DNA from: Bacteroidota bacterium
Lineage (GTDB): Bacteria; Bacteroidota; Bacteroidia; Chitinophagales; Chitinophagaceae
DNA length: 64,000 nucleotides
Direction of reading: 5' to 3'
Assembly (NCBI GenBank): GCA_028876495.1
Contig: JAGWRO010000062.1
Coordinates: forward strand, 1 to 64,000
Part shown: positions 56,542 to 63,802 of the stretch, piece by piece
How the letters are laid out: each line of letters opens with the position of its first letter
Position numbering within the stretch: the stretch's first letter is position 1
Program-made: the position numbers and the translations under genes
Notes under the pieces: generated by a model
What the model saw: only the letters and a program-made list of their open reading frames with translations
Databases searched by the model: none
What the model was told of the DNA's origin: nothing

Positions 56542-56584
56542 GTGTCTTCACGAAAGATTCAAAAAAAGTATTTCGTGAAGACAC
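56542..56584. repeat. Perfect 14-bp inverted repeat
   Basis: GTGTCTTCACGAAA (56542-56555) and TTTCGTGAAGACAC (56571-56584), with a 15-base loop. No T tract follows on the plus strand; GGTTTTTAAACC nearby is a further palindrome. It may end or stabilise the NTF2 gene transcript, or be a small dispersed element. Confidence 0.7.
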
Positions 56585-56610
56585 TTATCAGGTTTTTAAA
56601 CCAAAATAAA

Positions 56611-56641
56611 ACGGGTAAGCCCAAAACCAACCAGAGTAGGC
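56611..56641 (+). promoter_or_regulatory. Leader motif copy 1 (possible pseudoknot)
   Basis: ACGGGTAAGCCC, AAAACC and AGAGTAGGC in this order, 24 bases before the ATG at 56666. GGT (56614-56616) can pair with ACC (56626-56628), and GCC (56619-56621) with GGC (56639-56641), giving an H-type pseudoknot order. See findings for the comparison of the four copies. Confidence 0.55.
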
Positions 56642-56665
56642 ATTAACAACATAAATTATCAAACA

Positions 56666-56935
56666 ATGGTAACAGCAATTATTCAACATGAAGTAAAAGA
56701 CTTTGCAGAATGGAAAAAAATATTTGATTCAGACGAGGCCAACCGCGCCAGGGCCGGTGTTAAACTTATAGGCCTTTATACATCCCTAAACAACCCCAAT
56801 GATGTAACAATGATTTTTGAAGCGCCTAATCCTGAAATATATGACATCATGATGAGTGATCCCAAAAGACAAGAAGACATGAATAAAGCCGGTGTAATAA
56901 GTGCGCCTGTAGTAGCAATGTTGAACAAAGTTTAA
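56666..56935 (+). CDS. Small alpha/beta-barrel-like protein, paralogue 1
   Basis: 89 residues, no signal. The pattern TAIIQHEVKDFAEWKKIFDS, VKLIGLYTS, VTMIFEAPNPEIYDIMMSD and VVAMLNKV is that of the ferredoxin-like dimeric alpha/beta barrel (ABM/EthD/DUF1330 group). It resembles the next gene (57038) in each block. Function unknown; such dimers bind or convert small lipophilic molecules. It is preceded by leader motif copy 1. Confidence 0.75.
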   Translation: MVTAIIQHEVKDFAEWKKIFDSDEANRARAGVKLIGLYTSLNNPNDVTMIFEAPNPEIYDIMMSDPKRQEDMNKAGVISAPVVAMLNKV

Positions 56936-56984
56936 TGCTTCCGGCGTGGAAGTCGGGAAAAAATAAAAAGACAAAACAAAAAAA

Positions 56985-57014
56985 CGGGTGAGTCGAAAAC
57001 CGCTCAGAGTAGGC
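56985..57014 (+). promoter_or_regulatory. Leader motif copy 2 (possible pseudoknot)
   Basis: CGGGTGAGTCGAAAACC then GCTCAGAGTAGGC, 23 bases before the ATG at 57038. Pairings: GGT (56987-56989) with ACC (56999-57001); GTC (56992-56994) with GGC (57012-57014) through one G-T pair. It is almost identical to copy 3 though the genes behind them differ. Confidence 0.6.
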
Positions 57015-57037
57015 AATAACCATATAAATTATAAAAA

Positions 57038-57304
57038 ATGGCAACAGTAATAGGACGCCACAAAGTAGGCGACTTTAAAACATGGCTTGATGGCCACGAA
57101 GACAGGGTAAGAATATTTGCACCTGCAGTTTCCAGCTTTAAAACTTTCCAGGATACGGATGACCCTAATTCAATTGCATTAGTGCTGGAAGTTACAGACA
57201 TGGAAAAATTCGGAGCTATAATGAATGACCCGGATACACAGCGCTTTAAAGAAAAACACACGGTAATAGAACCGGTTATTATTTCAATGCAGGTAGACGT
57301 TTAA
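57038..57304 (+). CDS. Small alpha/beta-barrel-like protein, paralogue 2
   Basis: 88 residues. It repeats the layout of the preceding gene: TVIGRHKVGDFKTWLDGHED, VSSFKTFQDTDDPN, ALVLEVTDMEKFGAIMND and a C-terminal VIISMQVDV strand. The HK and His-Glu-Asp positions could bind a ligand, but nothing can be fixed. Probably cytoplasmic. It follows leader motif copy 2 and precedes a DUF3237 gene, both in the same transcript direction. Confidence 0.75.
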   Translation: MATVIGRHKVGDFKTWLDGHEDRVRIFAPAVSSFKTFQDTDDPNSIALVLEVTDMEKFGAIMNDPDTQRFKEKHTVIEPVIISMQVDV

Positions 57305-57413
57305 AGATGTTTAAGCGATGAAAACTTAATTCAAATACCGGAGAAGTATGGGCGGATTTGATTGGTGAAACATGCATTATGGTTTATCAAAGACATTGAC
57401 ATGAAACAAAAAA

Positions 57414-57443
57414 CGGGTAAGCCGAAAACCGCTCAGAGTAGGC
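57414..57443 (+). promoter_or_regulatory. Leader motif copy 3 (possible pseudoknot)
   Basis: CGGGTAAGCCGAAAACC then GCTCAGAGTAGGC, 16 bases before the ATG at 57460. Pairings: GGT (57416-57418) with ACC (57428-57430), and GCC (57421-57423) with GGC (57441-57443). It stands in front of an unrelated gene family, so it is not simply a by-product of duplication of the coding region. Confidence 0.6.
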
Positions 57444-57459
57444 AATAAAAACAAATGAT

Positions 57460-57915
57460 ATGGGTACAATTGACTTGGGTACACCTCTATACGAGTATAA
57501 CCTTAAAATTACCGGCCTCACAGAATACGGAGTCAACCTGCAGGAATTGGCATCAGGGAAAATTCCACCGCCACCGGAAGGCGCCAGGTTTGATGTAGCA
57601 TTCGCCGGCGAGGCAAGTGGTTCAAAATTGAGCGGAAAGGTCTCCGGGGTTGACTACTTACACATCCGTGCAGATGGGCGTTTTCAGCTTGACATTCATG
57701 CAGAAATAACAACAGCAGACGGGCAAAAAATTTCATTGAAAGCTGATGGCGTAGCCCTCACCCGGCAAGACAGCAGCATTTCTGACTTACGGGAGAACGT
57801 AACATTGTTTAGTTCTTCAAAAGATTATACGTGGGTAAATACAATACAAATATGGGGCATTGGAACAGTGGATCTCGCTACGCAGGATATTCATATAGCG
57901 GGCTATTCGGTGTAG
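57460..57915 (+). CDS. DUF3237-like protein
   Basis: 151 residues, no signal. Strands such as PLYEYNLKITG, RFDVAFAGEASGSKLSGKVSG, LHIRADGRFQLDIHAEITT and GQKISLKADG match the beta-barrel pattern of DUF3237, which resembles the lipocalin/AOC fold. The internal DGRFQLDIH block is typical. Function unknown. Leader motif copy 3 is immediately upstream. The C-terminal 30 residues (WVNTIQIWGIGTVDL) add a further strand pair. Confidence 0.75.
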   Translation: MGTIDLGTPLYEYNLKITGLTEYGVNLQELASGKIPPPPEGARFDVAFAGEASGSKLSGKVSGVDYLHIRADGRFQLDIHAEITTADGQKISLKADGVALTRQDSSISDLRENVTLFSSSKDYTWVNTIQIWGIGTVDLATQDIHIAGYSV

Positions 57916-57977
57916 CATATTGCAGGATAATAAAGATTCTGATCCGAAAAAGATTGTTTAACTAAAAACTCAAAATA

Positions 57978-58499
57978 ATGAAAAAAGTTTTTTTTGTCGT
58001 TGCCATAACGCTTATGGTAATTGGCTGTAATCAAACAGAAAAAAAGGATGACACTGCTTCCGATAAGGGCGTTGCAATGCAAGCACTTTATCAACAAAAC
58101 CTGGCAACTTTGAAAACGCTTGTTGCCGATTTTGAAAAAGAAGATATTGATGGTGAAGCTGCACAGATAGCAGATAGTGCAGTATGGAATTCTCCTGCTT
58201 ATGGCGACACAGTGCATACCAAAAAGCATTGGCTGGAAAGCCATAAGTTTTACATGGACAACTGGAGCGGCCTTCATTTAACCGATGGCCAGTTTCTGCC
58301 CGGTATTGACTCTGCTACTCACCAATTTGACGGAAGCGTAAGGTATTATGGCCGCTGGGATGGTGTTCATTCATCAGGGGTAGCTACGCAGGTTAATTTC
58401 TATGGAACCTATGAATTCAACGCCGACCATAAAATTATATCAGGTTCCGATTACTTTGACCTGGGCGGATTGATGAATGCAATAAAACCAAAAGGGTAA
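57978..58499 (+). CDS. NTF2/SnoaL-like lipoprotein
   Basis: 173 residues. Signal and lipobox (TLMVIGC) give a lipid-anchored protein. The body has the NTF2 pattern (DFEKEDIDGEAAQIADSAVWNSPAYGDT, KKHWLESHKFY, FYGTYEFNADHKI). It is distantly like the two genes at 55503 and 56041 but not a close copy, and no leader motif is seen before it. It belongs to the same run of ligand-binding folds. Confidence 0.8.
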   Translation: MKKVFFVVAITLMVIGCNQTEKKDDTASDKGVAMQALYQQNLATLKTLVADFEKEDIDGEAAQIADSAVWNSPAYGDTVHTKKHWLESHKFYMDNWSGLHLTDGQFLPGIDSATHQFDGSVRYYGRWDGVHSSGVATQVNFYGTYEFNADHKIISGSDYFDLGGLMNAIKPKG

Positions 58500-58553
58500 T
58501 CATTGGAGAATCATTATGGAAAAAAAGCACTTTCCTGCACATGCATTTCTGCA

Positions 58554-58585
58554 GGGGCGATTCCGAAAAGCCTTATGAGTAGGAA
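58554..58585 (+). promoter_or_regulatory. Leader motif copy 4 (divergent, with compensatory changes)
   Basis: GGGGCGATTCCGAAAAGCC then TTATGAGTAGGAA, 20 bases before the ATG at 58606. GGC (58556-58558) can pair with GCC (58570-58572), and TTCC (58561-58564) with GGAA (58582-58585). Both stems differ in sequence from copies 1-3 but keep pairing, while GAAA and GAGTA stay unchanged. Confidence 0.5.
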
Positions 58586-58605
58586 CCACTAAAAATTTAA
58601 ATAAA

Positions 58606-58929
58606 ATGAAAAAGTATTTAATCAAAGGAACCTATAATGCCGCGGGAACAAAAGCATTAATCCAGGAAGGTGGTTCCAAACGCAAAATTGCCGTTGATAA
58701 AATGTTGGCGGACCTGGGCGGTAAAGTAGAATCATTCTACTATTCAACCGGTGAGCACGATATCTATGTGATTGTAGAACTTCCTGACGACATTGCTGGT
58801 GCAGCCGCTACATTAGCTGTGAATGCCGCAGGGTTGGTGAAGATAACTGCATCACCGCTGCTTTCGCTAAAAGACATTGATGCTGTATTTAAAAAATCCG
58901 TCAGTTACCGGGCGCCGGGACAAAAATAA
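58606..58929 (+). CDS. GYD-domain protein
   Basis: 107 residues. Opening KYLIKGTYNAAGTKALIQEGG and VESFYYSTGEHDIYVIVELPDD match the GYD domain, with the conserved small-residue turn in the GEHDIYV block. The fold is again ferredoxin-like and dimeric. Function unknown. It is preceded by the divergent leader copy 4, and followed by an epimerase. Confidence 0.85.
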   Translation: MKKYLIKGTYNAAGTKALIQEGGSKRKIAVDKMLADLGGKVESFYYSTGEHDIYVIVELPDDIAGAAATLAVNAAGLVKITASPLLSLKDIDAVFKKSVSYRAPGQK

Positions 58930-62653: not shown

Positions 62654-63802
62654 ATGAAAGCAAAATCAATCAAAGGAAAATCAACAGAAGAAATAAATGC
62701 AGCACTGCAACAAAGCATGGCTGATGAGTTCAAACCAACACTGGCTTTTATTTTTATTTCCGTTAACCAGGACATTGATGCTGTCCGTGCGCTTCTGGAT
62801 CAGCAAGGCATACAGATTTTTGGAGCTACTACAGGTGGAGAGTTTAATGATGGTGAAATTCGTTCAGGTACCATTGCCATTCTGTTGGTGGATATGGATC
62901 CGTCCCAATTCATGATCTTACTCGGAGATTACCACGATAGAGATCCTGAATCAGTTGCAAAGGAGATGGCGGCAAAAGCAAAAGAACAATTTAAAAACCC
63001 CTCGTTTATAATTTCAAACAGCTTTGAACTGGCGAATTCAAACGTCATGGGGGAACCCATCGTTGGGGCAATTGATTCGGTTTGCGGAGCAAACACGATA
63101 ATATGGGGAGGTAATGCGGGCGATGATTTCATGTTTAAGGAAACGGTTGTATTCACCAATCATCAATCCACAAAAAGAGGGATTCTGCTGCTTGTGTTGA
63201 ACGGTGATACAATTACTGTGAAGGGAATGGCAGCTTCCGGGCAGAAGGCGGTAGGCACAGAAAAAATGATAACCAAAACCGAAGGCGATTGGGTGTATGA
63301 GATAGACCATCAACCTGCTGCAGAAATGGTGCTGAAGTACCTGGGACTTAATTTAACCCGGGAGGAAGCCGAAACTTTCAACCCGACTGATGCTAACGTG
63401 GTGTTGAGCGTTTCCCGCGACAACGGCTACCCGGTGCTGCGGGGTGTAGGGCAGTTTAATTGGAAGGATAAATCCATATTCATTCTCGGCAGTATTAAAG
63501 AAGGAGATAAAATACGCCTGACACTCCCTCCCGATTTTGAGGTGATCGAAGAGGTAAGTAAAAATGCAGAAAGAATAAAACAAGCTGAAATGCCGGAAGC
63601 AGATGCGTTGCTGATGTTTTCCTGTATCGGCAGGCTGGGCCAATTCGGACCACTGATCGGTGATGAAATAGAAGGCGTCAGAAAAGTTTTCAATGTACCC
63701 ATGGCGGGCTTTTTCACTTATGGAGAATTTGGCAGAACCAGGAATGGCAACAATGAATTTCATAATAATACCTGCTGCTGGGTGGCGTTGAAAGAAAAAT
63801 AA
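62654..63802 (+). CDS. FIST-domain sensor protein
   Basis: 382 residues with FIST_N (LAFIFISVNQDIDAVRAL, IFGATTGGEF, GNAGDDFMFKETVVF) and FIST_C (PVLRGVGQFNWKDKSIFI, ALLMFSCIGRLGQFG, GFFTYGEFGRTRNGNNEFHNNT). FIST domains are predicted small-ligand sensors, often linked to signalling proteins. Here there is no fused output domain. Cytoplasmic. No kinase or cyclase is adjacent. Confidence 0.92.
   Translation: MKAKSIKGKSTEEINAALQQSMADEFKPTLAFIFISVNQDIDAVRALLDQQGIQIFGATTGGEFNDGEIRSGTIAILLVDMDPSQFMILLGDYHDRDPESVAKEMAAKAKEQFKNPSFIISNSFELANSNVMGEPIVGAIDSVCGANTIIWGGNAGDDFMFKETVVFTNHQSTKRGILLLVLNGDTITVKGMAASGQKAVGTEKMITKTEGDWVYEIDHQPAAEMVLKYLGLNLTREEAETFNPTDANVVLSVSRDNGYPVLRGVGQFNWKDKSIFILGSIKEGDKIRLTLPPDFEVIEEVSKNAERIKQAEMPEADALLMFSCIGRLGQFGPLIGDEIEGVRKVFNVPMAGFFTYGEFGRTRNGNNEFHNNTCCWVALKEK

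Follow-up and report, generated by a model that had tools for sequence, protein, structure and literature searches.

A predicted DUF805b-type pseudoknot leader at a narrow distance from the start codons of small genes in a Chitinophagaceae contig and other Bacteroidota genomes

We analysed a 64,000-nucleotide (nt) stretch of a Chitinophagaceae contig (JAGWRO010000062.1, assembly GCA_028876495.1), hereafter called the window, in which an initial annotation had noted a short leader motif repeated four times, each copy 16-24 nt ahead of an ATG. We confirmed the four copies, which lie within 56610-58585 of the + strand and are each followed by a small gene. They turned out to belong to, or to be close relatives of, RNAs already named in Rfam, DUF805b (RF02914) and its sister DUF805 (RF03081), and the motif is therefore not a new one. 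Comparison with relatives across Bacteroidota supports a ~35-nt H-type pseudoknot with two covarying stems, located at a narrow distance from the start codon. We consider it a candidate element of translation initiation that would lie immediately 5' of where the ribosome lands and be gripped there by the 30S ribosomal subunit and its protein bS1 or by another partner, and we rate this reading a little short of an even chance.

Results

The four copies and the DUF805b/DUF805 clan

The core AAAAN7GAGTAGG has four exact matches in the 64 kb, against a mean of 0.04 and a largest count of 1 in 100 shuffles, and a chance repeat was rejected on this comparison. The RF02914 model, which is not of our own making, picks out the same four places, and among the Rfam models it was the sole family to reach its gathering score in the window; the preQ1-I model did not match. 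Copy 3 exceeds the RF02914 gathering score of 35.6 bits (Table 1) and is, judged by its sequence, a member of DUF805b (clan CL00115). Copies 1, 2 and 4 score below this cut-off and are relatives rather than members: copies 1 and 2 classify as weak, sub-threshold relatives of DUF805b, and copy 4 falls between DUF805b and DUF805, which is in the same clan. RF03081 gives copy 4 28.5 bits over 58522-58589, short of its cut-off of 51.1. Copy 4 has GGGGC, GAAAAGCC and GAGUAGGA in common with DUF805, but it is without that family's 5' hairpin of the GUGG-AGNYCAGAAA-CCAC type with its A-rich linker and carries instead a hairpin of its own that abuts stem P1. With DUF805b, the window copies share the 35-nt consensus, the loops, P1 and the place ahead of a gene, although the Rfam structure line of RF02914 shows P1 only, without the second stem, P2. 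The combination of P1, GAAAA and AGAGUA is complete in copies 2 and 3, with three P1 pairs and both loops, and incomplete in copy 1, which has CAAAA and, read in the register of the family, two P1 pairs, and in copy 4, which has U for A ahead of GAGUA.

Our own model, R1, scores all four copies at 29-44 bits (41.5 for copy 1, 34.7 for copy 2), the copies themselves being in its seed. In the same genome it finds these four and two clear sites more, C68:1593 and C82:7917; a weaker site, G000:C68:17271 (E 6.3e-4), was not confirmed by the motif regular expression at locus L243. Because RF02914 and RF03081 already name the family, we rejected a new RNA class. The DUF805/DUF805b motifs reportedly come from one earlier study. 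We found no function for these RNAs in the open literature searched, where RF02914 appeared only within an accession list.

Two covarying stems and nearly invariant loops

In the relatives the register reads P1 (4 base pairs, bp), a 4-nt loop L1 (often GNAA), P2 (3 bp), GAAAA, P1', a loop L3 ending in A, GAGUA and P2'. Copies 2 and 3 follow it with an L1 of GTGA or GTAA. The outer stem of the initial annotation, GGT/ACC in copies 1-3 and GGC/GCC in copy 4, was right for copy 4; in copies 2 and 3 it has to be replaced by CGG/CCG because GGT/ACC would consume the last A of GAAAA, and in copy 1, the weakest of the four, P1 is reduced to GG/CC. The inner pairing proposed for copy 4 stood, as TCC/GGA extendable to TTCC/GGAA.

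We aligned 82 sequences, taken from 87 unique Rfam-model matches after leaving out L045, L058, L083, L086 and L096 with their long loops. In this alignment 94.3% of the stem cells pair, compared with 72.0% after shuffling, and 106 double changes occur where shuffling gives 26.3. Changes on both sides are found in 4/4 P1 pairs and 2/3 P2 pairs; the count of pairs with any double change, 6, is unremarkable, being reached by 68/500 shuffles. Slid stem registers pair at most 51.6%. P2 is fully paired in 80 of the 87 matches (shuffled 43.1, with 0/10000 as high), a set chosen by an Rfam model that contains no P2 pairing and yet favours P2's commonest letters. Among 122 pattern matches, in which the C of P1 pairs 2 and 3 was fixed by the search pattern, pair 1 forms in 110 (shuffled 78.2) and pair 4 in 105 (52.0), whereas a fifth pair shows no excess (44, against 46.8). 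These comparisons support the predicted H-type pseudoknot with a P1 of 4 bp and a P2 of 3 bp, and they bear out the earlier proposal of a pseudoknotted cis element shared by unrelated genes.

We also searched 394 genomes with only AGGA/TCCT, AGCC and GGC fixed, leaving the loops free. This stems-only search returned 17 matches, 9 with exact GAAAA and GAGUA, 1 with GAAAA only and 7 that look random; none of the 17 had both loops at one change, and the backwards control gave 5 matches. In the 82-sequence alignment, which is Rfam-selected, GAAAA varies in its first letter only, which copy 1 has as C and L100 as A. GAA opposite AGUA on P2 resembles the bulged-G module of the sarcin-ricin loop and loop E. 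GAAAA and GAGUA may therefore stack on P2 as such a module and present a rigid recognition surface.

DUF805 carries in addition a 5' hairpin, whose loop resembles AGNYCAGAAA, and the A-rich linker. In 39 DUF805 sequences with a long hairpin, the Y and C of the loop can pair with the two letters preceding the GGC of P1. The first of these loop-flank pairs forms in 39/39 sequences (shuffle mean 36.3, 6/20000 as high) and the second in 38/39 (mean 32.8, 0/20000). At these two sites only about 8 of the 39 sequences have letters other than the usual ones, and some of the 8 are related, so that independent changes are few. Swapped and neighbouring-position controls on the same 39 sequences gave no signal. 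The Rfam structure line of RF03081 is without this pairing. A different hairpin, whose 3' strand abuts P1, is present in copy 4 and at three loci of the genus (L278, L279, L280); its stems are CCTGCA/TGCAGG, CTGCA/TGCAG and CCGGCA/TGCCGG, and it is weak in L279. In copy 4 it does not stand out from shuffles (-9.1, z -0.92; 33/200 equally good). A genus variant, seen in these four sequences, is possible, and we offer it as a lead rather than a proof.

Distribution in Bacteroidota

RF02914 is found in 14/20 genomes of the genus at E<=0.001, in 150/194 of the family at E<=1e-4, with as many as 20 matches per genome, and in 78/392 of the phylum at E<=1e-7. At these thresholds the controls were 0/14 in each search; at E<=10 they were positive in 14/14, and therefore only tight thresholds are meaningful. 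RF03081 reaches 54/382 phylum genomes at E<=1e-8, with 1/14 controls (Bacteroides ihuae). A strict pattern matched at least 118 stretches in named genomes. Among the matches listed, L109, L168 and L215 are metagenome-assembled genomes whose titles (Ruminococcus, Thalassocella and Lysobacterales) place them outside Bacteroidota. The DUF805b pattern also occurs in 15 viral contigs (L222-L236), where the 13 distinct sites listed lie 11-56 nt ahead of an ATG. Orthologues of the window's DUF3237 gene are present in 3/147 family genomes, our own included; the motif precedes the G001 copy, and the regular expression found none at the orthologue in G097 (L239).

Several loci hold clustered copies. Five DUF805b matches lie within ~1 kb at L156:2236-3260 and three at L144:4465-5280, and where the gene behind a copy was seen, small GG-leader-like peptide genes follow (three at L156, two at L144). 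Tandem copies ahead of one gene start 59 nt apart at L148:2519-2613 and 83 nt apart at L192:6566-6683.

Position relative to the start codon

The downstream analysis used 229 sites, viral ones counted in, which merged to 225 distinct ones. At 214 of these an open reading frame (ORF) of >=30 amino acids (aa) begins within 70 nt downstream, 207 times with ATG; among the other 11 are sites at contig ends, the first copy of a tandem and a small number of long leaders. An ATG lies 16-30 nt downstream at 187/225 sites, compared with 7.8% of 4280 random positions and 6/214 antisense. DUF805 sites have a similar distance, mostly 14-24 nt. Long open frames are avoided, with 80/217 sites inside a frame of >=100 aa versus 188 random positions. 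None of the three outcomes that the initial annotation had named as fatal to its reading (no further matches, stems that do not covary, matches unrelated to gene starts) occurred.

The spacer between knot and AUG is A/U-rich. In 192 spacers A occupies positions -13, -12 and -11 at frequencies of 0.81, 0.79 and 0.72 (0.50, 0.52 and 0.52 in 234 control ORFs) and position -3 at 0.66 (0.47 in the controls). Bacteroidia ribosomes do not recognise Shine-Dalgarno (SD) sequences (PMC9976891; PMC6847099); in Flavobacterium johnsoniae, A at -12, -13, -6 and -3 accompanies high ribosome density, and a less paired zone extends from ~-20 to +20 (PMC6847099). The knot is located at the edge of the zone so described.

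Pairing between the element and the start region showed no excess, at -7.77 versus -7.70 for swapped partners (sd 0.13). Since the motif-to-start duplex energy equals that of swapped pairs, a classical sequestering switch was rejected. Of the 'translational switch' suggested in the initial annotation, 'translational' fits the AUG-locked spacing, while the pairing comparison revealed no alternative structure of a switch-like kind. An extended SD was set aside as well, for although P1 and L1 are often SD-like (P1 is GGA/TCC in 106/221 descriptor matches), P1 varies and is far from the AUG. In 222 upstream stretches we found no promoter box at one fixed distance; 26 TANNTTTG boxes are scattered across them.

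Genes behind the element

The 214 downstream proteins fall into 166 BLAST clusters, 145 of them singletons, and a single-pathway regulon was rejected on these counts. The 171 complete proteins have a median length of 110 aa, and a crude rule applied to 192 proteins marks 73 as signal-bearing, 19 as lipoprotein-like and 15 as GG-leader-like. Pfam and NCBIfam were run on 150 of 163 cluster representatives, three clusters of <36 aa having been left out earlier; with one representative per cluster, the resulting family counts understate recurrence. They gave 49 Pfam families (25 of the 49 listed), the commonest with 5 members, and 53 NCBIfam families (25 listed). Among those listed are DUF6520 (5), leaders of class I lanthipeptides (3) and pinensin (1), PG1828-type lipoproteins (3) and single cases such as a T9SS tail, rhodopsin, DUF805 and GYD; most of the 150 representatives have no match among the families listed. 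The rhodopsin call comes from Pfam Bac_rhodopsin on one representative. Three genomes have a rhodopsin gene behind DUF805b (L059, L060 and L085), and two of these genes begin near-identically.

Within the genus, DUF3237, ABM-like and DUF4242-like genes, the relatives being named by sequence likeness, recur behind the motif. The link to such genes that had been suggested earlier holds in part at this level, while taken more widely the genes behind the element are much more varied. One protein family of 148-150 aa occupies 17/34 of the DUF805 loci in the family, and we take it to be AHSA1/SRPBCC-like; two further genes behind DUF805, at L287 and L319, are presumably aquaporin-like.

The locus in the window

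Coordinates are collected in Table 1. The 88-aa product behind copy 2 falls in the BLAST cluster of copy 1's gene, and the neighbours of the four genes include SnoaL-like proteins and an epimerase. A perfect inverted repeat, TTTCGTGAAGACAC, lies at 56542-56584 in the gap separating copy 1 from a SnoaL-like gene and is perhaps a terminator; hairpins resembling it are found upstream of the motif at L029 and L043. The 382-aa ORF at 62654-63802 presumably encodes a FIST-type sensor protein.

Table 1. Leader copies, the hairpin of copy 4 and the genes behind them
Feature	Position	Strand	Details
Copy 1, DUF805b-like pseudoknot leader (predicted)	56610..56642	+	CAAAA replaces GAAAA; P1 weak; RF02914 19.6 bits; P2 ends at 56641, 24 nt before the ATG
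Gene behind copy 1, 89 aa, DUF3764	56666..56935	+	PF12594 2.3e-07
Copy 2, DUF805b-like pseudoknot leader (predicted)	56983..57015	+	P1 CGG/CCG, P2 GTC/GGC; RF02914 27.4 bits; P2 ends at 57014, 23 nt before the ATG
Gene behind copy 2, 88 aa	57038..57304	+	no Pfam match at E<=0.01
Copy 3, DUF805b RNA (predicted)	57412..57444	+	P1 CGG/CCG, L1 GTAA, P2 GCC/GGC; RF02914 36.4 bits; P2 ends at 57443, 16 nt before the ATG
Gene behind copy 3, 151 aa, DUF3237	57460..57915	+	PF11578 6.1e-09
Hairpin CCTGCA/TGCAGG abutting P1 (GGC) of copy 4	58534..58555	+	predicted fold -8.4 kcal/mol
Copy 4, between DUF805b and DUF805 (predicted)	58553..58585	+	P1 GGC/GCC, L1 GAT, P2 TCC/GGA; RF02914 23.9 bits; P2 ends at 58584, 21 nt before the ATG
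Gene behind copy 4, 107 aa, GYD domain	58606..58929	+	PF08734 3e-19

Discussion

The narrow distance to the AUG, together with the lack of a box at a fixed place among the upstream stretches and of excess pairing with the start region, favours an action on initiation through a trans partner. We propose that the folded knot would sit at the side where the mRNA leaves the 30S subunit, which at the commonest spacings places it ~7-11 nt 5' of the A-rich -13/-11 box, as a positive docking or standby element gripped by the 30S platform (bS1 or its neighbours); another trans-acting RNA-binding partner could hold it instead. Such an element would serve accessory genes of a phylum not dependent on SD pairing. 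The strong initiation signals in the spacers and the presence of the element in viral contigs speak for this proposal. We put docking on S1 and the 30S subunit first because of the analogy with the Escherichia coli tisB mRNA, in which a pseudoknot is required for S1 and 30S binding (PMC7708055). Both are leader pseudoknots, S1 binding being putative for ours. In tisB, 100 nt separate the standby region from a sequestered ribosome-binding site downstream of it, whereas the start region behind the knot described here is A/U-rich and ~20 nt away.

Several observations weigh against an initiation element. The nearly invariant loops exceed what a general S1 site should need, which leaves room for a specific ligand or regulator. 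Six of the 20 genus genomes are without a match at E<=0.001, and the element is therefore dispensable for translation as such. Long leaders occur at a few sites (L004, L005, L032), and the -7 type box TANNTTTG is mildly enriched at -45 to -16 relative to the motif (10 against ~3), in scattered positions. The contrast in the A-box may be inflated, as the control start codons were picked mechanically, and the 9 exact-loop matches of the stems-only search represent 6 distinct sequences, four matches being identical and from one genus.

We rank a riboswitch second: a small pseudoknot could sense a phylum-wide signal, such as a nutrient or stress metabolite or a second messenger, and control a broad accessory gene set, a possibility we take seriously while doubting it. 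In size and topology the element resembles the preQ1-I riboswitch, a ~34-nt H-type pseudoknot with the same order of stems and loops but with other loops and genes. The near-invariance of the loops, the conserved hairpin that DUF805 adds with its loop-flank pairing, and the wide set of small, secreted-looking proteins would also suit a ligand-binding RNA. However, no single family of transporters or enzymes prevails behind DUF805b, where the 214 genes form 166 clusters, though behind DUF805 one family recurs and the two presumed aquaporin-like genes occur; the one test made for an expression platform, start-region pairing, found none, and the spacer between knot and AUG is A/U-rich.

Two further explanations appear unlikely. 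As a stabiliser of the mRNA, the knot would hinder decay that starts at the 5' end; folded 5' ends can slow decay, and the downstream genes appear well initiated. Its position nevertheless follows the AUG, and with no promoter seen at a fixed distance the knot does not have to lie at the 5' end. We judge still less probable a binding site for a dedicated Bacteroidota RNA-binding repressor or activator protein, for which loops that stay fixed while stem sequence varies, and the occurrence on viral contigs, can be adduced. It is very improbable that the element acts as DNA, in a promoter or operator, or that it repeats by chance: the near identity of copies 2 and 3 and the mild upstream excess of the -7 type box could suggest it, but both stems carry compensatory changes, the chance expectation for the core is far below the four copies found, and no box recurs at one distance.

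Returning to the initiation element, a bolder form, which we hold only tentatively and think unlikely as a whole, would make the clan a phylum-wide stand-in for the SD sequence: a rigid bulged-G pseudoknot docking, at a defined spacing from the AUG, on the bS1 side of the 30S platform, boosting or gating accessory, secreted and peptide genes, and borrowed by phages. The clan is of interest as a widespread, structurally exact and AUG-tied element whose gene catalogue spans precursors of ribosomally synthesised and post-translationally modified peptides, secreted proteins and many orphans. To the structure lines of Rfam, the analysis would add the DUF805 loop-flank pairing and, possibly, the genus variant seen in copy 4. 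As to how the mRNAs of Bacteroidia are singled out without SD sequences, a pseudoknot tied to the AUG offers a direct experimental entry.

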